Shown here in pieces: positions 908 through 46,715 of a stretch of 46,715 nucleotides of DNA. The DNA comes from Myxococcales bacterium (GTDB taxonomy: Bacteria > Myxococcota_A > UBA9042). The notes under the pieces were generated by a model. It saw nothing but the letters and a program-made list of their open reading frames with translations, searched no databases and had not been told where the DNA came from. Position 1 is the stretch's first letter. Each line of letters opens with the position of its first letter. Where the stretch lies: assembly GCA_009692465.1 (NCBI GenBank), contig SHZD01000017.1:1-46715 (forward strand). The letters are read 5' to 3'. The position numbers were made by a program, and so were the translations under genes.

Positions 908-1027
908 TTCGAGATCAACCTTTGACCGGAGCCGCGAGTCGGCTGCGCAGCAGACGCGAGCTTGGCGACCCACTGAGCAAGCACGAGATCGGCGGTCCGG
1001 CATTTGATGCCGGACTTCGGCGATCGA
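908..1027 (+). repeat. Family II structured repeat, diverged copy h
   Basis: It has the family II core (GCGAGTCGGC, then GACGCGAGCTTGGCGACC, then ACTGAGCAAGCAC) and a perfect 9-bp terminal hairpin GTCCGGCAT/ATGCCGGAC at 995-1015. Short outer complementary ends (CGAGATC near 910, GATCGAG at 1021-1027) enclose it. It lies tail to tail with copy i. A clear TNA duplication is not visible. Confidence 0.7.
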
Positions 1028-1066: not shown

Positions 1067-1190
1067 CTCGATCGCCTAAGTCAGGCATTATGCCGACTTG
1101 GGTCGATCTGGTGCTGGCTGGGTGAGTCGCCAAGCTCGCGTCGGTCGTGCAGCCGACTCGCGGCGACCAACCTAGGTTGATCTGCAATTT
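1067..1190 (-). repeat. Family II structured repeat, diverged copy i
   Basis: On the reverse strand it carries the family II core (GCCGCGAGTCGGC, GACGCGAGCTTGGCGAC) and a terminal hairpin AAGTC-GGCAT/ATGCC-GACTT at 1078-1099 with one bulge. It faces copy h across a family I fragment and ends about 30 bases before the fibrinogen-like gene, so it probably lies in or near that gene's promoter or leader. Confidence 0.7.
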
Positions 1191-3139: not shown

Positions 3140-3282
3140 TTAGGAATTGTCCCAGAATAAGTCATTGTGGGACTGGTTCCGTTTGCTTGCTTTGTGGGTC
3201 GCTACGCTCGCGTCCTCAAAGGCCGACTCGCCGCTCCTGTGTTACCCAGATCGATCGAGTTAGTGGAGGACAGTTCCTTAGG
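3140..3282 (-). repeat. Family II structured repeat, copy a
   Basis: Flanked by TTA on both sides (3140-3142 and 3278-3280). The inverted ends are GGAATTGTCC and GGACAGTTCC. Read from the upstream gene, the first feature is the hairpin GTCCCA/TGGGAC (3149-3173) with loop AAGTC, followed by T-rich CGTTTGCTTGCTTTG, then the conserved core containing GCCGACTCGCCGCTCC and CGATCGAGTTA. It lies between convergent genes. Confidence 0.88.
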
Positions 3283-12883: not shown

Positions 12884-13024
12884 TAAGGATGTGTCCTTAA
12901 ATAACTCGATCGACTCGCGCAACACTGGAGCGGCGAGTCGGCCATGGAGGACGCGGGCTTAGCGACCAACGAAGCCAGCAACCGAAACCAGTCCCACAGT
13001 GCCCTATTTGGGGACAGTTCCTCA
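12884..13024 (+). repeat. Family II structured repeat, copy b
   Basis: It contains the core GGAGCGGCGAGTCGGCC then AGGACGCGGGCTTAGCGACC. Flanks are TAA on the left and TCA on the right, so the 3-bp duplication is imperfect. The end hairpin is GTCCC/GGGAC. TCA at 13022-13024 is the reverse complement of the TGA stop of the Cys-rich gene, so the end of the repeat supplies that stop. It separates that gene from the DprE2-like gene downstream. Confidence 0.85.
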
Positions 13025-13819
13025 TTTCGGCATGCAGCCGCCGGCCGCGCATTTGGCCCACTGCGGACAGTCTTGGTCAACTACGCATTCGAGACAGAAT
13101 TCTTTCTTCTTGTCACAGACTTGCCAAGGCTGGCACTGGGTCGTGGAGGTGCATTTCTTGGGCTTGGCGACGCAGTGGTAGCCCAAACAGGCCGCTCCCG
13201 CAGCGCAATCGCTCAGCCCCGTGCACTCGGCGCACACGCCTAAGCTGGTGGCGCACACCAACTTGACCGCTGAGCACACTTTGTCGCCGCTGCACTCGAT
13301 TTCTGCGGCGCAGCTGCCCTGCCAACAATACTGGTCGGTCTTGCAGTCCGTGGTCGACAGGCACTGCACGCACTTGCCGGTATCGACGTTGCACCAGGCC
13401 CCGCGACACTGGCTATTCGCGCTGCAGCCTACCCCTGCCGAGTCCGCGATTTCTGTGACCGCAGCGTCCACCACCGCGACTTCGAGCAGTGCAGGGCCAT
13501 CGCTGACCGTGTCAGCGAGGGTCACTTCGGCTGCCGCGGCCTCGACGGTGCTGGTATCGGCGGTGCTGTCGGCGCCAGTGGGGGTACTGTCGGCGGCCGC
13601 GGTTTGACCATCACTAGGGGTATCGATGCCTGCACTGCCGTCACCTGCGCCAACGCTGGGCTTGACGACGACGGCTTCACTGCAGGCTGCCGCGCCGAGC
13701 AACATGGCGACTGGCAAGAACATGGCGACTGGCAAGAACATGGCGACTGACAAGAACGTCGCGACTGGCAAGAACGTCGCGACTGGCAACAGCAACTTGA
13801 TGATTTTGCAGATTTTCAT
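13022..13819 (-). CDS. Cys-rich lipoprotein with a repeat-expanded signal peptide
   Basis: The ATG at 13819 follows GGTGAG and gives 265 aa. The signal peptide is MKICKIIKLL followed by five hexapeptide repeats (LPVATF, LPVATF, LSVAMF, LPVAMF, LPVAML) and a lipobox GAAAC, so the mature protein should be lipid anchored. A Ser/Thr/Ala/Asp-rich spacer (about 55-135) precedes about 20 cysteines in short pairs (CSANSQC, CLSTTDC, CTGLSDC), a pattern common in Myxococcota surface proteins. The hydrophobic core of the signal peptide is encoded by an 18-bp minisatellite. The stop codon lies in the end of family II copy b. Function unknown. Confidence 0.85.
   Translation of the reverse strand: MKICKIIKLLLPVATFLPVATFLSVAMFLPVAMFLPVAMLLGAAACSEAVVVKPSVGAGDGSAGIDTPSDGQTAAADSTPTGADSTADTSTVEAAAAEVTLADTVSDGPALLEVAVVDAAVTEIADSAGVGCSANSQCRGAWCNVDTGKCVQCLSTTDCKTDQYCWQGSCAAEIECSGDKVCSAVKLVCATSLGVCAECTGLSDCAAGAACLGYHCVAKPKKCTSTTQCQPWQVCDKKKEFCLECVVDQDCPQWAKCAAGGCMPK
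13701..13790. repeat. 18-bp tandem repeat encoding a signal-peptide core
   Basis: Five units of AACATGGCGACTGGCAAG with a few changes. The unit is in frame with the lipoprotein gene on the reverse strand and encodes six hydrophobic residues, so copy number directly sets signal-peptide length. Confidence 0.95.
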
Positions 13820-13911: not shown

Positions 13912-14706
13912 CTAACCTAGTAATTCAATGCTTTTGCGCACCAGCAGCGACATCGCCCCAGCCAAAAGCAGCCCATACACCAATTTGCGAAAGGGCTCGG
14001 CGGCGATCTGGCGGTGAATCCGATTGCCGACCAGCCGACCGACAAGCAAACAGGGCAACAGAGTCGCGCTCGTCGCCAAGGTGCCGGTGTGCAAGTGGCC
14101 GAGCGAGACAAACTGGACCATCAGCGCGGCACCCAACACCAACCACAGCACCGCCAATGTCGCGCGAAATATGGACTTTTCAGTCAATTGTCGGCTAGTC
14201 GCCCATACCACCAACGGCCCGCCTGAACCATAGATGCCGTGGACAATCCCGCCACTGAGCAAGCCCACGGTCTGGGCACTTCCATGACCTACGGCTCCAA
14301 GGCCACCGTCCATCGCCGCAGACCCAAGGCCAGGCGGCCGATCGAGTGGCGGTTGACGGGGCCCACGCCACAGTTCAAGGGCCGCCAGTGTCGCCACCAG
14401 CACTGCGTAGGCCAACAGCAGCCACGGCCCCGGCGGTGTCAGCCGATACACCCCCATGCCCAGCAGCGTGCCCAGACCGACCCACGGCAGCATCCGCCTT
14501 AGCAGAAAGGGCCAAGCGATGTGGCCGCGGTCGCGGACCGCAATTGACAACGAAAGCAAGAAGTTAACCGGCACAAACAGCGGCAAAAGCTGCTCGAGCG
14601 GCAGCAGTTGGGCCCCCAGCGTGACCGTAATCACGGTGCCGCCAAAACCAGTGATGGCCTCAGCGACAAACGCTAGACTGACAATGGCATACAGGGCAAT
14701 TGGCAT
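13912..14706 (-). CDS. TauE/SafE family membrane permease
   Basis: 264 aa with about seven or eight hydrophobic segments. The opening FVAEAITGFGGTVITVTLGA and the second-half SGGIVHGIYGSGGPLVVWA are the paired glycine-rich motifs of the TauE/SafE (DUF81) family. Members export sulfite, sulfoacetate or other small organic anions across the inner membrane; the substrate here is unknown. It stands between the Cys-rich lipoprotein gene and the decarboxylase-like gene, all on the same strand. The 25-bp tandem array fills the gap just before its start, so it may alter spacing to an upstream promoter. Confidence 0.88.
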   Translation of the reverse strand: MPIALYAIVSLAFVAEAITGFGGTVITVTLGAQLLPLEQLLPLFVPVNFLLSLSIAVRDRGHIAWPFLLRRMLPWVGLGTLLGMGVYRLTPPGPWLLLAYAVLVATLAALELWRGPRQPPLDRPPGLGSAAMDGGLGAVGHGSAQTVGLLSGGIVHGIYGSGGPLVVWATSRQLTEKSIFRATLAVLWLVLGAALMVQFVSLGHLHTGTLATSATLLPCLLVGRLVGNRIHRQIAAEPFRKLVYGLLLAGAMSLLVRKSIELLG

Positions 14707-14715
14707 CGGCGAGCA

Positions 14716-14865
14716 GTCCTATGCCGCGGCGCTGTGTTTGGTCCTATGCCGCGGCGCTGTGTTTGGTCCTATGCCGCAGCGCTGTGTTTGGTCCTATGCC
14801 GCAGCGCTGTGTTTGGTCCTATGCCGCAGCGCTGTGTTTGGTCCTATGCCGCAGCGCTGTCGTCG
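14716..14865. repeat. 25-bp tandem repeat, six units
   Basis: Six units of GTCCTATGCCGC(G/A)GCGCTGTG with TTTG at the end. The outermost unit contains the real 3' end and TAG stop of the decarboxylase-like gene (stop at 14844-14846). The other units are copies of that gene end laid out in the gap before the TauE/SafE gene. Confidence 0.95.
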
Positions 14866-16181
14866 AGCGAATCGATAAAGCCGACAATCAACTCTTGGGC
14901 CATCCCGCGATCAGGCAGCGAACCCATCATGCTGTACATCGCCGCCTGGCCATCGTCAGCTGCCGGCAAGCCGCGCACTTGGGCTGCCGCCGCACTCAGG
15001 TCGGCCAAAAAAGCGTCGACGTGGGGCGCATGGGCGGCGGTAATCATAGCGTGCAGGGCCGGCGGCAGTTGCTGGCGGTCCAGATGCCAACCGCGCTCTT
15101 CCATCGCGTCGCCTAACCGGTAGATGTCGCCGTCGTCGCAGGTAAAGGCGAACACGGTGGCGTCGGGCTCGCCCAATACCCGCAGTCCTTCGATCGCGGC
15201 AATGCCGGCCATCATCGCGCGGGCCGCGCCCAAACTTTGGCGGGCAAGCCGCAAGTAGCCGTCTTGACCCAAGAAATGCAGCACCGCCCACGCCGCCGCA
15301 ATCGGCCCGCCCGGCCGGGTACCGGCGGCAGACGGCGAACCCCACAGACCGCCCGGCCAATCGGCGTGACTCATAAACTGGTGTTTGCGCAGGGCCCGAT
15401 CGCGATACAGAATCAGCGAGGCCCCTTTGGCCGCATAGCCGTACTTGTGCAGGTCGCACGAAATCGAGGTTACCCCCGGCACCCGCATATCCCACAGCGG
15501 CATCTGCCGACCTTGTTCGCCATCGATCACTTCAACAAACGGCAAAATCATGCCGCCCAGGCAACTGTCGACGTGACACAAGATGCCGCGCGCTTGGGCT
15601 AACGCCGCCAATTGCTCAATTGGATCAACGACTCCATGCGGATAGGCCACCGAACTGCCGACAATCAATACCGTGCGCTCGGTCAGCAGGTCCGCAGCGG
15701 CTGCGGCATCGGCGCGAAAATCGGTGCGGACGGGCAGCCAAATGGGTTCGACATCAAAGTAATGCGCCGCTTTGACAAAAGCCGGATGGGCGGTGGTCGG
15801 CAGCAGCATTTGCGGCTTGGTGATGCCTTTTTCGGCCCGGCCCCAGTCGCGGGCGGTCTTGACGGCCATCAACACCGATTCAGTGCCACCCGAAGTCAAG
15901 GTGCCGACGGCGTTGGGATCGCCGAGCAAACCGGCGGCGATCGCCAAGGCTTCGGTCTCCATGCGCCGCAAGCTGGGAAAAGCCATCGGATTGAGCGCAT
16001 TTTCAGAAAAACACTTGAGAAATGCGGCTTCCAGCAGCGATTTGACTTCTTCACCGGCGTAGTAGACCAGGCTAAAAGTGCGGCCGTCTTTCCAGTTGGC
16101 ATCGCCGGTCCGGTAGCCATCCAGGGTAGATAGCACCGATTCACGCGACCAACCGGTCGGCGGCAAGGCGTCGATAGGCAT
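14844..16181 (-). CDS. PLP-dependent decarboxylase/lyase, sphingosine-1-phosphate lyase-like
   Basis: The ATG at 16181 follows AAAGGG and gives 445 aa; the longer frame to 16268 lacks support. Group II decarboxylase fold: SGGTESVLMAVKTAR binds the phosphate, HVDSCLGGM holds the Asp that contacts the PLP nitrogen, and SCDLHKYGYAAKG contains the Schiff-base lysine. GGLWGSPSAAGTRPGG is typical of sphingosine-1-phosphate lyases and related aldehyde-lyases rather than glutamate decarboxylases. A role in breaking phosphorylated sphingoid bases fits an organism that makes sphingolipids, but this is inference. A hydrophobic anchor, present in eukaryotic forms, is absent. Confidence 0.82.
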   Translation of the reverse strand: MPIDALPPTGWSRESVLSTLDGYRTGDANWKDGRTFSLVYYAGEEVKSLLEAAFLKCFSENALNPMAFPSLRRMETEALAIAAGLLGDPNAVGTLTSGGTESVLMAVKTARDWGRAEKGITKPQMLLPTTAHPAFVKAAHYFDVEPIWLPVRTDFRADAAAAADLLTERTVLIVGSSVAYPHGVVDPIEQLAALAQARGILCHVDSCLGGMILPFVEVIDGEQGRQMPLWDMRVPGVTSISCDLHKYGYAAKGASLILYRDRALRKHQFMSHADWPGGLWGSPSAAGTRPGGPIAAAWAVLHFLGQDGYLRLARQSLGAARAMMAGIAAIEGLRVLGEPDATVFAFTCDDGDIYRLGDAMEERGWHLDRQQLPPALHAMITAAHAPHVDAFLADLSAAAAQVRGLPAADDGQAAMYSMMGSLPDRGMAQELIVGFIDSLDDSAAA

Positions 16182-16290: not shown

Positions 16291-16497
16291 CTAGGAGCGT
16301 GTCGGAGTATTCCGACTCGCTCCTAGCGCCGTCTGGCTAGACGGCGGCAACTGTCCGAAACTGCACGGATTCACTTCGGGCAGTTCTCGGACAGTTGAGA
16401 ATAGTTGACTGGCTAGGAGCCTGCCGGATCGTAATAGATTCATTGTGTATAACTTGATAGGCATTCAACAACCGATTGATTTCCGACAGGCTCCTAG
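16291..16497 (-). repeat. Family I CTAG-bounded hairpin repeat, complete copy
   Basis: 207 bp from CTAG to CTAG, in inverted orientation relative to the other copies. Its ends are CTAGGAGCGTGTCGGA and TCCGACAGGCTCCTAG. Inside are the 36-bp hairpin (16291-16326), the hairpin CGCCGTCT/AGACGGCG, the long stem CAACTGTCCGA/TCGGACAGTTG, and a further inverted pair starting CTAGGAGCCTGCCGGA near 16413. It occupies most of the gap between the S1P-lyase-like gene and the PLP enzyme. Confidence 0.95.
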
Positions 16498-19811: not shown

Positions 19812-21383
19812 CGACGTTAGGTCGCCAGCATGAAAGTACGGCGCCGACAGCGCGACCCCGCGCAACGACTTGGTTCGAAACTGGCCGATCTGCGACGGAT
19901 CGGATAGCAACCCGGCCAATTTGCCAGTCATGGTATTGTCGCTGTACTTGCCGTTGCTGTTGAACGGACTAGCCAGCAGCGGCGGCACATCCTTGAACCG
20001 ACCGGGGTCGGGAACCTTCTTGGCAAATCCAGACGGCACCCCAAGCGCGTGAAATTTACCATCGCTCAGCGCCGGGCCGCTGTGGCAGTCGACGCAATTG
20101 GCCTTGCCGATGAACAAGGCGAGCCCGTTTGGGGCTGATGGCGACAGCGCCTGTTTGTTGCCGGCCATGAATTTGTCAAACGGGGCATTGCGGCTGACGC
20201 ACAACCGCATGTAAGCGGCAATCGCCTTGCCGTAGTTGACGAAGATAGTGGTGGCGATTTCGCGGTCAGCAGCAGCCATGCCTTCCCACGCACCGTCAGG
20301 TTGGCCTGCTTGCTTGGGCTTGCCGGCAGGCGGAAATCGATAGGCGTCCGCAGCCTTGTTACTCAGCGCCGGATTGAGCGGCGTCGGAAACACCGCGTCA
20401 TAGTCCTGCTGGTACTTGTTGAACAGCACATGAGCGACGGCCAGCCGCGACGAGTTGAAGAGGTTGGGATTTTCGGCAACGGTCAGCGACAGCGCCCATT
20501 GCGAATCAAAACGCCCACCCCAATTCACCCACGTATAGAACGCGGAGTTGACCACAGACAGGGCATTGCGTGGTTCGGGAGTATCGGGCTCAGTGCCGTA
20601 CGGTGTGGGATTGACCTTGTCGGTGCTCTGGTCCATCGCCTCACCCGCATGACAGCTGGAACAAGCGATGTTTCCCGCAGTGGGCGGCTTAAAGGTGCTT
20701 ACGCTATACGAGGCATCGAAGTACAACTTTTGCCCAAGAACCGCGGCCTTGGCATTGTCAGCGTAGGCGTTGGTCGGGTCGGGCGGAACATCTGCAAGCG
20801 GCGACAGCGTGTTCAGGACCGTCCACTGAGCGGCGCTGAACTGGGGGGCTTCGACCGGTTCAGGGGTGTCTTGTGCCTGCGCGGGAGTGTCCAACTCCTG
20901 CCCAATGGTGTCCAACTCCTGCGCAGTGGTGTCCAGCGCCTGCCCAATGGTGTCCAACTCCTGCCCAATGGTGTCCAACTCCTGCCCAATGGTGTCCAAC
21001 TCCTGCCCAATGGTGTCCAACTCCTGCCCAATGGTGTCCAACTCCTGCGCAGTGGTGTCCAGCGCCTGCGCAGTGGTGTCCAGCGCCTGCGCAGTGGTGT
21101 CCAGCGCCTGCCTGGGGGTGTCCAAGGGCTGCACGGCGGTGTCCGCCACCTGACTGGCGATGTCTGGTGCGGCGGCGTTGACGGGTCCATCGACTGCGGT
21201 GACCGCCTCAACCGGATTCGCAGAATCGAAAGTGGCCGTCGCGTCGGTCGCGGTCGCTTGGTCAGCGTCCTGGATAGTGGTCGGGTTCGGCGCGCTCGCC
21301 GTGGTGCAACCGGCTAAAATAGCTAAGTAAACACCGCTAGCGCAGGCCAAAGCGCCATAGGGTCGATTGAGTTCGTATTTCAT
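19776..21383 (-). CDS. Lipoprotein di-heme cytochrome c peroxidase/MauG-like, C-terminally truncated
   Basis: The ATG at 21383 gives 535 aa. A lipobox in LAILAGC marks a lipoprotein. Residues about 75-165 contain 13 heptad units of the LDTIGQE/LDTTAQA type, a repeat-made spacer. The enzyme domain follows: LGQKLYFDASYS, heme site 1 CSSCH, NSAFYTWVNWGGRFDSQW, heme site 2 CVDCH, then FRTKSLRGVALSAPYFHAGD. Such proteins reduce peroxide or oxidise other substrates in the periplasm. Family members continue about 60 residues past YFHAG; here the sequence turns into the translated family I hairpin (GASRNTPTLS) and stops, so the C-terminus is lost. Both heme motifs survive, so activity is uncertain rather than excluded. 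Confidence 0.82.
   Translation of the reverse strand: MKYELNRPYGALACASGVYLAILAGCTTASAPNPTTIQDADQATATDATATFDSANPVEAVTAVDGPVNAAAPDIASQVADTAVQPLDTPRQALDTTAQALDTTAQALDTTAQELDTIGQELDTIGQELDTIGQELDTIGQELDTIGQALDTTAQELDTIGQELDTPAQAQDTPEPVEAPQFSAAQWTVLNTLSPLADVPPDPTNAYADNAKAAVLGQKLYFDASYSVSTFKPPTAGNIACSSCHAGEAMDQSTDKVNPTPYGTEPDTPEPRNALSVVNSAFYTWVNWGGRFDSQWALSLTVAENPNLFNSSRLAVAHVLFNKYQQDYDAVFPTPLNPALSNKAADAYRFPPAGKPKQAGQPDGAWEGMAAADREIATTIFVNYGKAIAAYMRLCVSRNAPFDKFMAGNKQALSPSAPNGLALFIGKANCVDCHSGPALSDGKFHALGVPSGFAKKVPDPGRFKDVPPLLASPFNSNGKYSDNTMTGKLAGLLSDPSQIGQFRTKSLRGVALSAPYFHAGDLTSLGASRNTPTLS
20887..21159. repeat. 21-bp tandem repeat, 13 units
   Basis: Units of GTGTCCAACTCCTGCCCAATG with two main variants (AACTCCTGCCCAATG and AGCGCCTGCGCAGTG). 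The unit is in frame with the peroxidase gene on the reverse strand and encodes a seven-residue spacer. It is not a CRISPR array because there are no spacers. Confidence 0.95.
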
Positions 21384-21516: not shown

Positions 21517-22410
21517 TCAACCACCGCCAGCCGCAGACCGAAGGCCAAGCACTTTGACTCCAGCTACGGCGCCGACTGCCACCAAGATCAGCATCGGCAG
21601 CGCGTGACCGCCAGCGACGTGCTCGGCATTGGATAGCGGGCACCACAAGTCGACGAACACGCCCGCCCAAGCGCCCGCTGCCGCGCCCAACGCTGCGCCT
21701 GTCCAACTAGGAGCCTGTCGGAAATCAATCGGTTATGAAATGTCTTTGCGGTTATACACAATGAATCTATTGCGATCCGACAGTCTCCTAGCTTCTCAGA
21801 TATTCTCAACTGTCCAAGAACTGCCCGGAGTAAATCCGTGCAGTTTCAGACAGTTGCCGCCGTCTAGCCAGACGGCGCTAGGAGCGAGTCGGAATACTCC
21901 GACACGCTCCTAGGGGCCACTGCAACAGATTGCCGACGCAACCACATCGACGCCAGCAGCACCATGGAAGCGAGCGCCAACGTCAAACCCTAGGCAGCGC
22001 CAGCCGATGCGCTCAAAGGGCTCGGCATAGCTGCTGGCGAAGGTAATCAGCCACACATTGGCCACGACCGGGGTAGCCAGCGCGACTAGAGCCAATTGGC
22101 TAGTCGGATGGCCGAGCATCGAGCGACGCCGACCCGCCGCAACCACCGACACTGCGAGCGCCAGTGCTGCCGCGCCGGTCGCAATCGCCACAGTCAGTTC
22201 CACAGGCCGACCTTGGCCGTGGGCCAACCCTCCGGCGAACTGAAAAATCGCCAGCATCGCCAGCCCAGCGAGGCTGTAGACCACCAGTACCCGACGACGC
22301 CGATCCAGTCGGGTGGGCGAGGGCTGCTGCCGCGCGGCCGCCAGCACCCGATCGCGTAACACTACCGACGGCTGGTCCGGTGAAGAAGACATGGTTGCAA
22401 CCTGTTTCAT
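21517..22410 (-). pseudogene. NrsF-like (DUF1109) anti-sigma gene split by a family I repeat
   Basis: The 5' part starts with an ATG at 22410, overlapping the sigma gene stop as ATGA, and encodes several membrane segments. The 3' part (21706 down to the TGA at 21517-21519) encodes SWTGAALGAAAGAWAG, then VDLWCPLSNAEHVAGGHALP, the conserved Cys-Pro and His motif of NrsF proteins. The two parts are separated by the repeat at 21707-21913. Deleting the repeat with one CTAG joins VAVAP to SWTG in frame. A second lesion at another CTAG (21990-21993) shifts the frame by one base; dropping one base gives CLGLTLALASM. NrsF proteins are inner-membrane antagonists of ECF sigma factors, so this one is almost certainly inactive. 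Confidence 0.85.
21707..21913 (+). repeat. Family I CTAG-bounded hairpin repeat, complete copy inserted in the anti-sigma gene
   Basis: 207 bp including CTAG at both ends. Terminal inverted repeats CTAGGAGCCTGTCGGA and TCCGACACGCTCCTAG. Further CTAG sites at 21788, 21864 and 21878 mark module borders: left module 21707-21791 with its own inverted ends, central stem-loop with CAACTGTCC-type arms, and the right 36-bp hairpin 21878-21913. It interrupts an otherwise continuous coding sequence, which shows it moved in. Confidence 0.95.
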
Positions 22411-23268: not shown

Positions 23269-23410
23269 TTAGGGCCTGAGCAAGAATTACTCGATCGACT
23301 TGCGACAGGGGCGGAGCGTGCAGGCGGCTTGCAAAGCCGCGAGTCAGCGACTCACTCAGCCAGCAATGGGCCGGGGTGCAAAATCGACTTGGTTTTGTAG
23401 GGGCCCTTAG
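23269..23410 (+). repeat. Family II structured repeat, copy c
   Basis: Flanked by TTA on both sides. Inverted ends TAGGGCCTGAGCAA and GGGGCCCTTA. The terminal hairpin combines GGGCC/GGCCC and GCAAAAT/GTTTTGT arms around the loop with CGACTT (23366-23406). The core is more diverged (GCGTGCAGGCGGC) but keeps ATTACTCGATCG and CCGCGAGTCAGCGACTCAC. It starts 23 bases after the stop of the gene at 23433. Confidence 0.85.
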
Positions 23411-26618: not shown

Positions 26619-27497
26619 CTACGGCGCTTTGACCCACGCCGGCAAATCGCCGCACTGATCTTGCCAGCCGGTGCACACTTGCGGGGTATTCTGGAATGAA
26701 TTGAAGGCGGTAATCAAACACTTGATCTTAGCCGACAAGCGCGTGTTGTCCAACTTGCCGCCGGGCGTGACCCACTGAAAGCAGGCCCAGCCGCAGCAAT
26801 CTTCCGTTTTTGGCTTGGGCCACAATTGGCACGACTTGAGCAGGCCTTTGCATACGGCGACGCAAGCCTGCTTGGCTTCACCGAATTGGGGCAGCGCGCC
26901 GGCTTTGTCCTGCCAGTCGCACACAACTGGGTCGACTTGAATCTGGCCGTGAACGCTGGGACTTTGGCACACTTTGGTCGGTAAGTCGGTGATCAGCACG
27001 ATGTTCTTGTAGGTCGGCTTGGCGCACAGCTCCCAGCTGGGGTTGGTTTGGTGGCACTGGGCGACGTTGGCGCAGATCGGCAGGCACAGCGGCGTGCTCG
27101 GGCCGGCAAAATCCTTGGGCATTTGCACGCAAAATGCCGCCGCGCCGTTGAGTTCTGGCTGCTTGCAGTAGTCCTTGACCTGCGCCGGTTGGCAGGTGGC
27201 AGCGCAAAACGGCTTGGCGTAGTCGCTGTCCAAACAGAAAAAGCCCTTGCTGCAGCCGATCGCCGGATCACAGAGCGCTCCAAATTGCGGCAAGACGGCA
27301 ACGTCAGCCGGGCCGGCGTCGACCGCGACCCCGACGGCGGCCTCGCCACAACCGCTTAGCATTGCAGGGATTAGGGCGTATAAAAGAATAACTCGATCGA
27401 TCTGCGAAAAGAACGGAGCAGCGAGTCGGCTGTAAAGACGCGAGCTTGCGACCCACGCAGCAAGCAAACGGGCACGGTAAATGGATGACTTATTCAT
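26619..27497 (-). CDS. Cys-rich lipoprotein whose signal peptide was split by a family II repeat
   Basis: The mature part begins at the lipobox LSGC and contains about 20 cysteines (CDPAIGCSKGFFC, CQPAQVKDYC, CCGWACFQW), a secreted disulfide-rich protein of unknown role. The frame as it stands opens at ATG 27497, which lies in the terminal hairpin of repeat copy d, and reads 35 unnatural residues through the repeat before VILLYALIPAMLSGC. The true start appears to be ATG 27556, on the far side of the repeat. Removing the repeat and one TTA yields a normal lipoprotein leader. The severed leader ends at a TGA that overlaps ATG 27497 as ATGA, so coupled translation might rescue expression. Otherwise it is a pseudogene. 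Confidence 0.8.
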   Translation of the reverse strand: MNKSSIYRARLLAAWVASSRLYSRLAAPFFSQIDRVILLYALIPAMLSGCGEAAVGVAVDAGPADVAVLPQFGALCDPAIGCSKGFFCLDSDYAKPFCAATCQPAQVKDYCKQPELNGAAAFCVQMPKDFAGPSTPLCLPICANVAQCHQTNPSWELCAKPTYKNIVLITDLPTKVCQSPSVHGQIQVDPVVCDWQDKAGALPQFGEAKQACVAVCKGLLKSCQLWPKPKTEDCCGWACFQWVTPGGKLDNTRLSAKIKCLITAFNSFQNTPQVCTGWQDQCGDLPAWVKAP

Positions 27498-27511
27498 TTA
27501 CGAGCCCTTAG
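27371..27511 (+). repeat. Family II structured repeat, copy d, inserted in a signal-peptide coding region
   Basis: Flanked by TTA on both sides (27371-27373 and 27508-27510). Inverted ends AGGGCGTATAAA and its partner ending ACGAGCCCT. Terminal hairpin GTAAATG/CATTTAC (27477-27501) with ATGACTTATT in the loop. Core GAGCAGCGAGTCGGC and GACGCGAGCTTGCGACCCAC. It divides a lipoprotein leader between its Ala-Ala-Leu and Ile-Pro codons. Confidence 0.92.
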
Positions 27512-27556
27512 GGCAGCGATGGCGAAAAAGGCGGCGACGCCGAGGGAGTGCGACAT
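27511..27556 (-). other. Severed 5' end of the Cys-rich lipoprotein gene
   Basis: On the reverse strand this encodes MSHSLGVAAFFAIAA and the first base of the next codon. Joined across repeat copy d it continues LIPAMLSGC, giving a 24-residue leader with n-region, hydrophobic core and lipobox. As it stands the frame ends soon inside the repeat. Start codons here and of the ABC operon are divergent and 76 bases apart. Confidence 0.85.
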
Positions 27557-27632
27557 GGGCACAGCATAGCTGCAGCGGGCCGCCAACCCCAAGCCTCTAT
27601 CGCTGTCGCCGCTTTGCAGGCACTATCGCGAC

Positions 27633-28619
27633 GTGAACGCTGACGCCCAACAACCGGTGCCTCCAAATCAGCCGGTCGCCATTTTACGCGGCGTGTCAAA
27701 GACTTATGGCGAGCTACCTGCTCTGCGCGACATTGAACTGGCCATCCCACGGGGCGCGATTGGCCTGCTGGGGCCCAACGGCGCCGGCAAATCGACGCTG
27801 TTTCGCCTGCTTTTGGGGCTGGAAACCGCCGATCACGGCAGCATCGATGTGCTGGGCATGGCGATGCCGGACCATAGTTTGGAAGTGCTGGCCCGCATCG
27901 GCTATATGCCTGAAGACGATAGCCTTTTTCCAGGACTCGACGGTTTGGGGCAAGTGGTCCACGCCGCCCAGTTGTGTGGCTTGTCGACCACGGATGCACG
28001 TAGCCGGGCCCATCGCGCGCTGGATTTGTGTGGCCTCTCGGATGCGCGCTATCGGCAGGCCAAGTCCTTTTCGCTGGGCATGCGCCAGCGGTTGCGGCTG
28101 GCGATGGCGATGGCCCATGGGCCGGAGTTGCTGATCCTCGACGAGCCTACGGCGGGCTTGGATCCCGAGGGACGTCACCAAATGCTTGACTTAATTACAG
28201 AAATTGCTAACCAAGGCGTGGCGGTGGTGCTGTCGACTCACGTGCTGCCCGACGTCGAATCGGTGTGTAGCGAAGTGATCCTGCTGTCGCGCGGCCAAGT
28301 GGGGTACACGGGATCGGTCTCAGCTTTCAAGCAGGGTACGGGATCGCGGTGGAAGGTGAGAGTAGTCGGCGATCCCCAACGCTTAGCAACTGTTGTCAAA
28401 ACTGCTGGTTTTGACAGTGAAGTGACCGGCCGCATCGTGGTGATCGCAGCACCAGTCGATGCCGGACCGCGGCTGTGGCAGTTGTGTGCTGAGGCCGATA
28501 TCGGCGTTCGCTCTTTTGGCCCCTTAGAAGAGGATATGGGTGCAGCATTCGTTCGGCACTTGCGTATTGATGATCCATTGCGCAAACAAGCGCTTGAACG
28601 CCAAACGGAGGCTTCGTGA
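27633..28619 (+). CDS. ABC transporter ATP-binding protein, ABC-2 type (first pair)
   Basis: 328 aa from GTG. Walker A GPNGAGKS, signature FSLGMRQRLRLAMAM, Walker B LLILDEPTAGLDPEG and the switch His in VLSTHVLPD are all present, so it should hydrolyse ATP. A C-terminal extension of about 100 residues resembles the regulatory tail of ABC-2 exporters. It overlaps the next permease gene by four bases. The operon holds two ATPase-permease pairs. Known ABC-2 systems export drugs, lipids, polysaccharides or proteins; the cargo here is not evident. Confidence 0.9.
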   Translation: MNADAQQPVPPNQPVAILRGVSKTYGELPALRDIELAIPRGAIGLLGPNGAGKSTLFRLLLGLETADHGSIDVLGMAMPDHSLEVLARIGYMPEDDSLFPGLDGLGQVVHAAQLCGLSTTDARSRAHRALDLCGLSDARYRQAKSFSLGMRQRLRLAMAMAHGPELLILDEPTAGLDPEGRHQMLDLITEIANQGVAVVLSTHVLPDVESVCSEVILLSRGQVGYTGSVSAFKQGTGSRWKVRVVGDPQRLATVVKTAGFDSEVTGRIVVIAAPVDAGPRLWQLCAEADIGVRSFGPLEEDMGAAFVRHLRIDDPLRKQALERQTEAS

Positions 28620-31361: not shown

Positions 31362-31502
31362 CTAAGGATTGGTGACAAAATAACTCGATCGTTCGGCAAT
31401 GCGCCGGAGCAGAGAGTCGTCTTGCAAAGACGCGAACTTGCGACCCACCCTGCCAGCAAAAAGGACTTGTGACAGAACGACTTGTTCTGTCACAGGTCCT
31501 AA
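31362..31502 (+). repeat. Family II structured repeat, copy e
   Basis: Flanked by TAA on both sides. Inverted ends AAGGATTGGTGACA and TGTCACAGGTCCT. Its terminal hairpin is the strongest of the family: GTGACAGAAC/GTTCTGTCAC with loop GACTT (31469-31493). Read from the AAA gene this hairpin is followed by AAGTCCTTTTT, a classic intrinsic terminator. The AAA stop codon overlaps the right-hand TAA. Confidence 0.92.
31469..31493 (-). terminator. Intrinsic terminator of the AAA ATPase gene, supplied by repeat copy e
   Basis: Ten perfect base pairs, a five-base loop AAGTC, and a downstream T-run on the reverse strand (five Ts at 31458-31462), starting six bases after the stop codon. Confidence 0.8.
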
Positions 31503-33695: not shown

Positions 33696-33840
33696 CCTCA
33701 GGAACTGTCCTCAAATAACTAGATCGATCTGGGCCACACAGGAGCGGCGAGTCGGCCTTTCAGGACGCGAGCTTAGCGACCAACAAAGCAAGCAAACGGA
33801 ACCACACCCAAAATGACTCATTCTGGGACAGTTCCTCAGG
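33696..33840 (+). repeat. Family II structured repeat, copy f
   Basis: Flanked by TCA on both sides. Inverted ends GGAACTGTCC and GGACAGTTCC, perfectly complementary. Terminal hairpin CCCA.AATG/CATT.TGGG with ACT loop (33807-33827). Core GGAGCGGCGAGTCGGCC, AGGACGCGAGCTTAGCGACC, AAAGCAAGCAAACGG. It lies 46 bases after the M16 stop and directly before the AAA ribosome binding site. Confidence 0.93.
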
Positions 33841-36883: not shown

Positions 36884-38736
36884 TTCGCACCTTCCGTGGC
36901 TGTGGTCGGCAATTCGACTGGGACTGGGACTGGGACTGGGACTGGGGCTGGGGCTGGGGCTGGCTTTTCGGGTGCAATTGGGTCTGGTTTGCCGATTGGC
37001 GCCTCCGTGTACTTTTCAGCAGCTGGCCCGGTTGGCTTGTCAGTCGGAGCCGGGGCTGGGGCTGGGGCGCCAACGGAATCCGGGGCCGTCACCGGTGTCG
37101 CGTCGGCGGCTTGGGGTGTCGCGTCGGCGGCTTGGGGTGTCGCGTCGGCGGCTTGGGGTGTCGCGTCGGCGGCTTGGGGTGTCGCGTCGGCGGCTTGGGG
37201 TAGGGCTTCGGCGGCCTTGCGCCGTGCTTGCTCTTGCGCCCGCAGTTCAGCCGCGACCTTTTTAGCCTCAGCGTCGCTGATCGCCTTTTCGGTGCGGCGT
37301 ATCCAGTCGGGTTTGGATCCCACTGGGGTCGCGGCCGCGCCGACAGGCAACACTTCCAACTCAACTTCGCGGTCCCACGTCAGCCACATCCGCGCCACCC
37401 GCTGCACATCGGCCACCGTCACCGCCCGATAACGCGGCAATACTTGCGCCAGCTTGTTGGCGTCGCCGTAAAATACCTCAAACATCGCCAACAGTTCGGC
37501 CCGCCGCGCTGGACTTTCTGCCGCCATCACCCAGCCGGTTTCAAAGGCTACCCGCGCGCGGCGTAGCTCTTCGGGCGTTACCCCAAACTGGGCAATGCTA
37601 AGAATTTCTTCGCGAATTCTCTTCTTTGTCTCGGCAATCGCCGCCGGACCCGGTTCCGCCAGTTCGACGTAGACCTGAAACAAATCCATATCGCGACGGC
37701 CATGCGTGCCCGCCGAATAGCCCGACGCCAAGGTGCCTTGGCGCACCAGGCGCTTTTCCAGCCGCGAAGAATCGCCTGAGCCCAAGACTTCAGCTAATAA
37801 ATCAAGGGCATCCGAGTCAGGATCGGGGTGCGCAGGCACTTTCCACGCCAGATGAACAGCCGGCGCCCGCGTCAGCTTGTCGGTCAGACTGCCACTTTGA
37901 TGGCCCACTGGCGCCGGCTCTTCAATTTTGGTTCGCTGGATTTCCGCGCGGCGCACCACCAGCCCCAAAGTCTTGGTCACCAGCACTCGCGCCGTCGCCA
38001 CATCGACATCGCCGGACAGCACCAGCACGCAATTATTGGGCGTGTACCAACGCTGCCAAAAGTCGACAAAAGCCTGCACCGGCGCTTTGGTCAAATCGGC
38101 AATCGTGCCGATCGTGGCATGTCCCATCGCCCACGAGGCGTAGACCCGCTCGATGATCTCCAGATGCGAGCGCACCAATGGACGATTTTCAATTCTTTCA
38201 CGCAGTTCCTCCATCACAGTCTGGCGCTGATTTTCGACATTGGCGGCGTCGATAACCAGATTGGCAAACCGCTCGGCCTCGAGCCACAGCGCCAATTCCA
38301 AGGCCGGTCGCGGCACAACTTGGTAATACCACGTGCGATCCGCGCTAGTGTTGGCATTGAGATCGGCGCCCTGCCCTTCGAGCGCCCGCATATGCTCCAT
38401 TTTGCCGGCGTGTTTGCTGCCCTGAAACATCATGTGTTCAAAAAAATGCGCAATCCCGCTTAATCCTTTGGTTTCATCGCGCGACCCGACGTCGACCATG
38501 ATCCCTACCGCCACCAACGGCGCCGACCGATCGGTGTGCACCAGCACCCGCATCCCGTTGTTAAGGGTGAATTTGTCAAACACCCACGGCTTGGGCTGCG
38601 GCCACGGCGCTTCGGGCTCAACCGCAACTAGCGGCGGCTTTTTGGCCTTTTTGGCAGCCAGTGCTGGTTGCGCGGCAAGGCAAACGCCAACCGCGCATGA
38701 GACAACCACAGCCAGCGTAAGTTTTGATTTTTGCAT
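36880..38736 (-). CDS. Catalytic M16-family zinc metallopeptidase, exported
   Basis: The ATG at 38736 gives 618 aa and a signal peptide ending ALAA before KKAKK. The zinc-binding and catalytic HFFEH lies at about residue 96 in SGIAHFFEHMMFQGSKH, with the downstream Glu in the usual NANTSADRTWYY region. The fold spans about 45-480. It pairs with the inactive homologue encoded downstream with a four-base overlap. The C-terminus is a low-complexity tail with five ATPQAAD units and an AP/VP-rich end made of 6-bp repeats, possibly a spacer through the periplasm. Divergent from aspS across 132 bases. Confidence 0.9.
   Translation of the reverse strand: MQKSKLTLAVVVSCAVGVCLAAQPALAAKKAKKPPLVAVEPEAPWPQPKPWVFDKFTLNNGMRVLVHTDRSAPLVAVGIMVDVGSRDETKGLSGIAHFFEHMMFQGSKHAGKMEHMRALEGQGADLNANTSADRTWYYQVVPRPALELALWLEAERFANLVIDAANVENQRQTVMEELRERIENRPLVRSHLEIIERVYASWAMGHATIGTIADLTKAPVQAFVDFWQRWYTPNNCVLVLSGDVDVATARVLVTKTLGLVVRRAEIQRTKIEEPAPVGHQSGSLTDKLTRAPAVHLAWKVPAHPDPDSDALDLLAEVLGSGDSSRLEKRLVRQGTLASGYSAGTHGRRDMDLFQVYVELAEPGPAAIAETKKRIREEILSIAQFGVTPEELRRARVAFETGWVMAAESPARRAELLAMFEVFYGDANKLAQVLPRYRAVTVADVQRVARMWLTWDREVELEVLPVGAAATPVGSKPDWIRRTEKAISDAEAKKVAAELRAQEQARRKAAEALPQAADATPQAADATPQAADATPQAADATPQAADATPVTAPDSVGAPAPAPAPTDKPTGPAAEKYTEAPIGKPDPIAPEKPAPAPAPVPVPVPVPVELPTTATEGAK
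36915..36965. repeat. 6-bp tandem repeat in the M16 gene tail
   Basis: Runs of GGGACT and GGGGCT encode alternating Pro-Val and Pro-Ala near the C-terminus of the catalytic M16 protein. Confidence 0.85.
37094..37198. repeat. 21-bp tandem repeat, five identical units
   Basis: Units of GGTGTCGCGTCGGCGGCTTG plus G, in frame on the reverse strand, encoding the repeated ATPQAAD tail of the M16 peptidase. The copies are identical, so the expansion is recent. Confidence 0.95.
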
Positions 38737-38868
38737 GGGAATCACGACCTGCCCCGCTCGAACGAGCGCCGAATGTAGCACCGGTGGGGACTGCCGACTA
38801 GGCCTTGATGGACCTGCGCGAACCCCTTAGGATGCCGCCCCCGCTTTTGGCAGCGGTTGGAGAAGGCG

Positions 38869-40725
38869 ATGACCTCGATTTTGCTGACCTCGATTTTGCC
38901 GACCTCGATTTTGCCGACCTCGATTTTGCCGACCTCGATTTTGCCGACCTCGATTTTGGAAACGGCGCGGCGGACTTGTGGCAATGGCGTGTACCGATCT
39001 GGCGATATTGACCGTCAAGTCGCAGTGTTCGGCTGGGTGCAGGCCTATCGCAACCACGGTGGCGTGTTGTTTATCGATGTGCGCGACCGCACTGGTTTTG
39101 TGCAACTGCGCTGCGAAACCGATCGCGCGGCGGTGTACGCGACGGCGCTGACGCTGCGACCCGAGTGGGTGGTGGCGGCGACGGGCAAGGTCATTTCGCG
39201 CGCAAGCAATACCAATTCCAAGATTGCGACCGGCGACGTGGAGATTGAGGTCCACGCCCTTGAAGTCCTTTCCGAGGCGCAGACCCCGCCGTTTGAGATC
39301 AAGGACGGCGTCAACGCCAATGACGACTTACGCTTGCAGTATAGATACTTGGATTTGCGGCGCCCCGAACTGAGCAAGAACTTTGCCGCGCGGTCGCACA
39401 TCACCCAATTGACGCGCAAGTATTTTATCGAGCATGACTTTTTGGAGCTGGAAACGCCGATTCTGACCAAATCGACCCCAGAAGGCGCGCGCGACTATCT
39501 GGTGCCCAGTCGGGTGCACGGTGGGCAGTTTTACGCGCTGCCGCAGTCTCCTCAGCAATTCAAGCAGTTGTTCATGATGGCCGGGATGGATCGCTACATG
39601 CAGATTTGCCGCTGTTTTCGCGACGAAGACTTGCGGGCGGACCGGCAGCCGGAGTTTACCCAGCTCGATCTGGAAATGTCGTTTGTGACGCCCGAGCAAC
39701 TCTATGAGTTGTTAGAGGGTTACGTTGCTATGGTCTGGAAAGAGTTTTTGGGCGTCGACATCGCCTTGCCGGTGCAACGGATGACCTACGCGCAGGCGAT
39801 GGACACCTACGGCTGCGATAAACCCGACTTGCGCTTTGAGTTGCCACTGTGCGACATCACGGAGACAGTGCGCGGGGCGACAGAGTTTCGGGTGTTTACC
39901 GCGGCGCTTGAAAGTGGCGGCAGGGTCAAGGCCTTGGCGCTGCCCGACGGTTCTGCCTTTACCCGCAAAGACTTGGACACCACGTTGCCTCAAGAAGCGG
40001 CAACCCACGGCGCCAAAGGGCTGGCGTGGGCGCGGATCGCCGCAGGTGGCGAGTGGTCGGGGCCGGTGGCCAAGGCGCTGTCCGTCGAGTTGCGGGCCGA
40101 GTTGGCGGCCAAGTTGGGGGTCGGCGACGGCGCACTGATCCTGTTTGTGGCCGACAAGGCCGCGGTCGTCAACGCTTCTCTCGCGCGGCTGCGCTTGGTG
40201 GCTGCGGAGCGCCTGGGGCTTCTGCTCAAGTCCAAGTGGGCGTTCTTGTGGGTCACCGACTTTCCGATGTTTGAGTATGACGACGGCGAAAAGCGCTGGT
40301 CGGCGATGCACCACCCGTTTACCAGCCCGCGGCCGGACCAAGTGCATCTGCTAGACAGCGAACCGGGGGCAGTTTTGGCCCAGGCCTACGACTTGGTGGT
40401 CAATGGCACTGAGTTGGGCGGCGGGTCGATTCGGATTCACCGCAGTGACTTACAAGCCAAGGTTTTTGGGCTGCTGGGCTTGAGCGACGAGCAAGTGCGC
40501 GATAAATTTGGCTTCTTTGTCGATGCCCTCAAGTACGGCACCCCGCCGCACGGCGGCATCGCCTTTGGTTTGGACCGCTTGATGATGCTTTTAGTCGGCG
40601 CGGACAGTTTGCGCGATGTGATTGCCTTTCCCAAGACGGCGCGGGCGGCGTGCCTGATGTCGCAAGCGCCGTGTGCGGTCGATGAGCGGCAGTTGGCGGA
40701 GCTGCATATTGCGGTGGCGAAGTAG
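38869..40725 (+). CDS. aspS: Aspartyl-tRNA synthetase with a repeat-extended N-terminus
   Basis: The ATG at 38869 follows GGAGAAGG and gives 618 aa, normal for the bacterial type. It charges tRNA-Asp (or also tRNA-Asn if non-discriminating). OB-fold anticodon domain (about 35-140), motif 2 [14 protein letters not shown] near 250, a bacterial GAD insertion (about 300-420), and motif 3 [12 protein letters not shown] near 566. The first 30 residues are odd: six near-identical TSIL(P) units from a 15-bp minisatellite. The original N-terminus was probably [13 protein letters not shown]. All catalytic motifs are intact, so the extension is presumably tolerated. Confidence 0.95.
38872..38961. repeat. 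15-bp tandem repeat at the aspS start, six units
   Basis: Units of ACCTCGATTTTGCCG begin at the second codon of aspS and keep the frame. The first unit has CTG for CCG and the last ends GGAA. Confidence 0.95.
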
Positions 40726-46497: not shown

Positions 46498-46573
46498 ATG
46501 AAGCCCGCCGCCACCCCCGCCGCCCTGATTGCTGCCCGCACCAACCAGCTGGACCCGACCATTGCCGCGCTAG
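46498..46573 (+). pseudogene. 5' end of a gene cut by a family I repeat
   Basis: ATG 46498 follows CGGAGT at a good distance and reads MKPAATPAALIAARTN, then DPTIAAL, where the coding sequence meets CTAG and the family I repeat. The frame then runs through repeat sequence to a stop at 46678-46680. The original continuation lies beyond the window. About 24 residues are too few to assign a family. Confidence 0.6.
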
Positions 46574-46715
46574 GAGCCTGTCGGAAATCAATCGGTTTTG
46601 AAATGTCTATCAGGTTATACACAATGAATCTATTACGATCCGGCAGGCTCCTAGCCAGTCAACTATTCTCAACTGTCTGAGAACTGCCCGGAGTGAATCC
46701 GTGCAGTTTCGGACA
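46570..46715 (+). repeat. Family I CTAG-bounded hairpin repeat, cut by window end
   Basis: Element positions 1-146, starting CTAGGAGCCTGTCGGA. Its last 86 bases match bases 1-86 of the window with three differences, so it is a different copy of the same repeat and not a circular join. Confidence 0.93.

Follow-up and report, generated by a model that had tools for sequence, protein, structure and literature searches.

A recently inserted, probably non-autonomous MITE-like repeat interrupts the signal peptide codons of a conserved cysteine-rich lipoprotein gene

How does a short repeat come to lie within the signal peptide codons of a bacterial gene, and what becomes of that gene afterwards? 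This question is raised by a gene for a Cys-rich lipoprotein on the minus strand of a 46,715-nucleotide stretch of Myxococcales DNA (the window), which is interrupted within its leader by a 134-bp repeat copy on the plus strand (27374–27507) with TTA on each side (27371–27373 and 27508–27510). This copy, of subfamily a, matches our model R1 over its full length and has no transposase-sized frame. It is bounded by imperfect terminal inverted repeats (TIRs) of about 21 bp, GGGCGTATAAAAGAATAACTC on the left (27374–27394, plus strand) and GGGCTCGTAAATGAATAAGTC on the right (27487–27507, minus strand), which pair at 17 of 21 positions in the subfamily consensus. Inside these ends lie a conserved core, GGAGCAGCGAGTCGGCTGTAAAGACGCGAGCTTGCGACCC (27415–27454, plus strand), and a 3′ hairpin (27470–27507, plus strand), in which the TIR is joined to its own reverse complement.

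The first-pass annotation held that removing the repeat and one TTA rejoins the two halves of the gene in frame, and this proved correct: excision of 137 bp restores MSHSLGVAAFFAIAALIPAMLSGC, giving a stop-free reading frame, MSHSLGVAAFFAIAALIPAMLSGCGEAAV..., that joins the 5′ part of the original leader (MSHSLGVAAFFAIAA, 27511–27556, minus strand, with the original ATG at 27556) to the remainder of the gene (LIPAMLSGC..., 26619–27370, minus strand). That fit had also been read as showing directly that the repeat is mobile, which does not follow, since the two halves of a gene rejoin in frame after removal of any insertion that has a target-site duplication (TSD); mobility rests instead on repeat-free orthologues and on paralogous empty sites, both of which bear it out. 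Similarly, the restored leader is textbook in part: its lipobox, LSGC, is canonical and fits [LVI][ASTVI][GAS]C after a hydrophobic stretch, but its n-region, MSHSL(G), is without Lys or Arg. The Cys-rich protein matched no Pfam family.

With a net gain of 137 bp (the element and one TTA), the frame is now shifted. The original ATG encodes a 20-aa peptide, MSHSLGVAAFFAIAALRARK, which stops at a TGA (27496–27494) that overlaps, as ATGA, the ATG at 27497 of a downstream 292-aa frame, MNKSSIYRARLLAAWVASSRLYSRLAAPFFSQIDRVILLYALIPAMLSGC... (26619–27497, minus strand). This frame starts within the element, which also supplies an SD-like AAGG 8 nt 5′ of the ATG, and reads without a stop into the Cys-rich protein. 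Its leader, ...VILLYALIPAMLSGC, is therefore part element (MNKSS...DRVILLYA) and part original (LIPAMLSGC), and has K/R, then the hydrophobic VILLYALIPAM (mean hydropathy 2.47) in place of the pre-insertion VAAFFAIAALI, then LSGC. The gene, described earlier as split, is thus interrupted in its leader but retains its lipobox behind a new start and a new hydrophobic stretch.

We infer from this arrangement that the element-supplied ATG and hydrophobic stretch may have replaced the original leader, with translation plausibly coupled through the ATGA overlap and the SD-like AAGG; the predicted 292-aa product would then be a candidate for lipidation and export. Two fates fit: the lipoprotein or its export may have been lost, or the product may be made from the element's ATG. 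The same start and open frame, MNKSFIYRARLLAAWVASSRLYSRLAAPFFSQIDRVILLHA, are built into the subfamily consensus, so that a copy of this subfamily could supply a leader to a gene if it landed close to the start and in the right frame. A scan for promoters and terminators around the lipoprotein gene found none. Directly 5′ of the original ATG lies the motif TATnCTGkGCCC (27557–27571), conserved in a congener, which suggests a leaderless or nearly leaderless transcript of the gene.

Orthologues provide the first line of evidence for insertion. Lipoprotein matches were found in 28 of the 36 genomes searched, namely the genome of the window and 27 relatives, and in nearly all orthologues read the N-terminus is unbroken and includes a leader and the Cys; the repeat is absent from the leader of every one of them (G002, G001, G003, G005 and other genera). 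In the congener G002 the locus is syntenic, with the divergent ABC-transporter ATPase gene (27633–28619 on the plus strand in the window; PF00005, E=4e-28) 77.6% identical, the lipoprotein about 71–72% identical and the next gene 75% identical. The G002 orthologue, observed directly, keeps the promoter-like TATnCTGkGCCCATG at its ATG and has an uninterrupted leader free of the element. Close relatives thus hold the intact leader that the first-pass annotation had expected there, and the contrary pattern it had named, distant orthologues with the repeat at the same leader position, was not seen among those read.

An old insertion fixed by shared descent, possibly as a regulatory part of the gene, would account for the element supplying a start codon and a reading frame continuous with the gene; against this stand the uninterrupted, element-free leaders of the orthologues and a copy that differs from its subfamily consensus at 2 positions only, which make such an origin highly improbable. 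The recent landing proposed earlier agrees with this 99% identity to the consensus and with both halves of the gene being still open. It is equally hard to believe that the junction is an assembly chimera formed at a repeat in this draft metagenome-assembled genome. Repeats did disturb the assembly, as the contig ends within them (1–148 and 46570–46715), but the TSD is the same on both flanks of the element, these flanks are parts of a single gene that rejoin in frame, and congener synteny continues across the site. The repeats at the contig ends belong to a second, palindromic family, CTAGGAGCGTGTCGGAGTATTCCGACTCGCTCCTAG, with further members at 16291–16497 and 21707–21914 (147–207 nt, 89–98% identical), and the assembly breaks there because both ends lie in it. 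The window also contains short tandem arrays at 20823–21194, 37073–37236, 38856–38973, 14691–14885, 531–712 and 13683–13794 (periods 21, 21, 15, 25, 26 and 18, respectively), some of which fall within long open frames.

The second line of evidence comes from the repeat family itself. Further full-length copies lie in the window at 3144–3276 (minus strand) and at 12887–13021, 23272–23406, 31366–31499 and 33701–33835 (all plus strand), together with partial copies at 915–983 (plus) and 1077–1164 (minus), and the same genome has many copies 97–99% identical to the leader copy at unrelated sites. A profile search gave 237 hits in 1.218 Mb of this genome, equal to 2.1% of bases, compared with 0 hits in a reversed-sequence control; the near-identical copies and this control show that the leader copy is no chance resemblance. 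Extrapolated from this sample, the genome would hold about 1,130 copies, or about 1,050 when contigs picked regardless of the element are used, and about half of the copies are full length.

In a set of 98 full-length copies drawn from several genomes, 57 have equal 3-bp flanks, a number that never exceeded 39 in 10,000 shuffles; no copy in this set pairs TAA with TTA. Among 115 copies in 1.22 Mb of the window's own genome, flanks were TAA/TAA in 43, TTA/TTA in 23 and mixed in 3, and the target consensus is C-TWA-G. The duplication is accordingly 3 bp and TTA at the leader, as annotated, but TWA in the family generally, with no specificity for TTA. One subfamily-a copy (G000:C292:2918–3051) sits within another repeat, and its flanks plus one TTA match several unoccupied paralogues with 94–98% identity across the junction; these empty sites prove insertion with duplication of one TTA. 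Elsewhere, a subfamily-b copy has landed in the hairpin of a subfamily-a copy and is bounded on each side by TAA, allowing for one additional A. Boundaries, target duplication, empty sites and membership of a multicopy family are in this way demonstrated for the element.

Copies avoid genes, with 36% of excised sites falling in frames of at least 250 codons compared with 83% of random TWA sites, so the leader insertion is of the rarer kind. Signs of a preference for targets at stop codons were weak (14% versus 6% of random TWA sites, for frames of at least 150 codons). Most close pairs, 23 of 29, are arranged head to tail. At one locus of the congener (L330, G002:C6:46900–47480), three identical copies form a perfect head-to-tail array that shares single TAAs. 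At another (L137, G000:C275), some 270 bp of a different repeat, seemingly bordered by CTAG, break up the core region of a copy.

Short, intergenic, hairpin-forming and present in many copies, the family could be mistaken for REP/RAYT-type palindromic repeats. Its defined ends, long TIRs and TWA duplication are out of keeping with that class, no GTAG-type REP motif was noted among the copies inspected, and RAYT-mediated insertion is not known to create TSDs; we regard this assignment as scarcely credible. The element matched nothing in phage and plasmid collections, nor in Rfam at the gathering score or at E≤1. Its properties are those of a miniature inverted-repeat transposable element (MITE): it is short and without a transposase gene, has TIRs and a fixed-length TWA duplication, and occurs as near-identical copies at unrelated sites.

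MITEs are moved in trans. The TIRs of the element are of the type GGAACTGTCC/GGACCTGTGAC/GGGCGTGTAAA. Members of the IS1031 group of the IS5 family produce 3-bp TNA repeats and have the TIR GAACCTGTCTAGTATCT (PMC12016507), and GGAACTGTCC and GGACCTGTGAC look similar to the IS1031-group end GAACCTGTCTAG. A transposase of the IS5 family, IS1031-like, thus seems the most likely agent; we infer this from the ends and the duplication, because no autonomous element with the same TIRs was found, either in 1.2 Mb of the window's own genome or near the transposase genes of the genus. PF13586 and PF13340 had no match in that genome (92% complete); IS5-type matches to these families occurred only in G002, G004, G017 and G019, none with the element's ends, and those of G002 and G004 are remnants. 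None of the genus's six genomes contained PF13359, the PIF/Harbinger-type transposase family, and PF01609 loci scanned for the TIR and TNA gave nothing credible.

Two apparent leads were rejected. TIR pairs 0.4–4 kb apart in the 1.2 Mb proved to be merely pairs of separate MITEs. An IS5-type transposase gene between two inverted full-length copies (L164, G002:C289) resembled an autonomous or composite element, but the copies have their own TSDs (TAA/TAA and TTA/TTA) and one truncates the 3′ end of the gene, so that we read the locus as a probable damaged IS hit twice. IS5-type elements with TWA-type flanks do occur in the bacterial family, among them one of G019 (L244, 785–2058); their TIR, GAGGGTGT..., is unlike that of the 134-bp element. 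The window's own genome contains a separate MITE family of about 200 bp with this GAGGGTGT... TIR, matching the G019 element; its copies (L200:4724–4928, L226:279–483, L185:16217–16421 and others) are TWA-flanked (TTA GAGGGTGTTTATCTTC...GAATGTAAACACCCTC), and their outer end is a recurrent insertion spot for the 134-bp element.

The interior of the element behaves differently from its ends. Between subfamilies of the window's own genome, divergence is 20–45% in the left part and 23–40% in the right part, compared with 10–24% in the core (27415–27454); within subfamilies, a neutral test of core against ends is confounded by sub-subfamilies. Covariation between subfamilies scored 0.230 for the end pairs and 0.291 for the structure with the 3′ hairpin, compared with about 0.14 in shuffles (0.136 ± 0.011 for the latter), which would mean that, as the TIRs turn over, both ends and the hairpin change in step. 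In the genera g6 and g9 the same core is flanked by different ends, and an outer stem GTCGCC/GGCGAC replaces GGAGC/GCGACC. In alignment A2, three pairs of the inner stem are changed on both sides, with a covariation of 0.143 versus 0.036 in shuffles, although these are small counts from related sequences. Of the 22 genomes of the bacterial family, 15, spread over six genera, matched a model of the core, as did a single one (G363) of the other 357 genomes searched in the phylum. In genus g6 (L284–L301; G019, G014), the core lies within an element with the ends CTAWACATSCCTGC and no clear target duplication. A core of about 40 nt that is conserved across six genera while the ends turn over is, judging from these alignments, the reverse of an ordinary MITE.

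This conservation, unusual for a MITE, and the failure to find a transposase gene with the element's TIRs speak against the MITE model. Both would be expected of a mobile unit mediated by RNA or single-stranded DNA, with the folded core as substrate and no DDE transposase, as would the covarying hairpin and core pairs and the same core between different ends in g6. However, inverted-repeat ends combined with a fixed 3-bp TWA duplication mark the work of a DDE transposase, and the TSD, and apparently the TIR, resemble those of the IS1031 group. Routes through reverse transcription leave variable duplications, and those through HUH enzymes or tyrosine recombinases usually none; we consider such a unit unlikely. 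A somewhat broader speculation, to which we give slightly more weight while still doubting it, is that the core, as folded RNA or ssDNA, is the true inherited unit, a lineage-specific module that swaps transposon ends between genera with a SINE-like logic, its copies exporting a start codon and a hydrophobic peptide into host genes.

Taken together, the evidence makes it likely that a non-autonomous MITE-like DNA transposon, moved in trans, recently inserted into the signal peptide codons of a conserved Cys-rich lipoprotein. A trans-acting transposase would have cut a C-TWA-G target and left a 3-bp TWA duplication, and the insertion would have occurred recently and, among the genomes seen, in this lineage alone. 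Ribosomes starting at the original ATG would then make the 20-aa peptide, and re-initiation at the overlapping ATG of the element would yield the 292-aa product with its hybrid leader. The locus thus records a mobile repeat that hit a signal peptide and possibly rebuilt it, with the uninterrupted version kept in a relative; it also brings to light, in an uncultured bacterial family, a group of elements that is very abundant and was active recently, and the conserved interior with changing ends makes the role of a bacterial MITE's interior testable.

Several known systems share parts of this picture. The eukaryotic PIF/Harbinger elements and Tourist MITEs have a TWA duplication, a palindromic TWA-centred target and TIRs starting with GG, all traits of the element described here, but the PF13359-type transposase is absent from the genus's six genomes. 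Within bacteria, the IS1031 group of the IS5 family (ISLrh, PMC12016507) shares the 3-bp TNA duplication and has an apparently similar TIR type, GNACCTGTC; its members are autonomous and about 0.9 kb long, whereas the 134-bp element is geneless and no IS with its exact TIR was found in those six genomes. Bacterial MITEs such as Correia, ERIC, RUP, Chunjie and QMITE1/2 (PMC10969869) are likewise short, transposase-less, trans-mobilised and mostly intergenic in their many copies, with TIRs and a TSD, and the roughly 1,050–1,130 copies estimated here compare with 711 for ERIC in Photorhabdus (PMC10969869); here, however, a structured core is kept across genera, the TIRs turn over and the search for a parent IS sharing these ends gave none. 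Rickettsia palindromic elements, repeats of about 150 bp that insert in genes and add a peptide (PMC10969869), keep the host frame open, whereas here the gain of 137 bp puts the gene out of frame and calls for a new start. Leader donation itself has a precedent in RU-2 within YPO1552 of Yersinia (PMC2759123). In that case the repeat and the host, an enterobacterium, are different; here the protein hit is a lipoprotein, and the target codons, the TSD and an intact syntenic orthologue can all be read. The single leader insertion is therefore a fresh case of a known kind of event, whereas the element family differs from usual MITEs in that its interior is conserved and its ends change.
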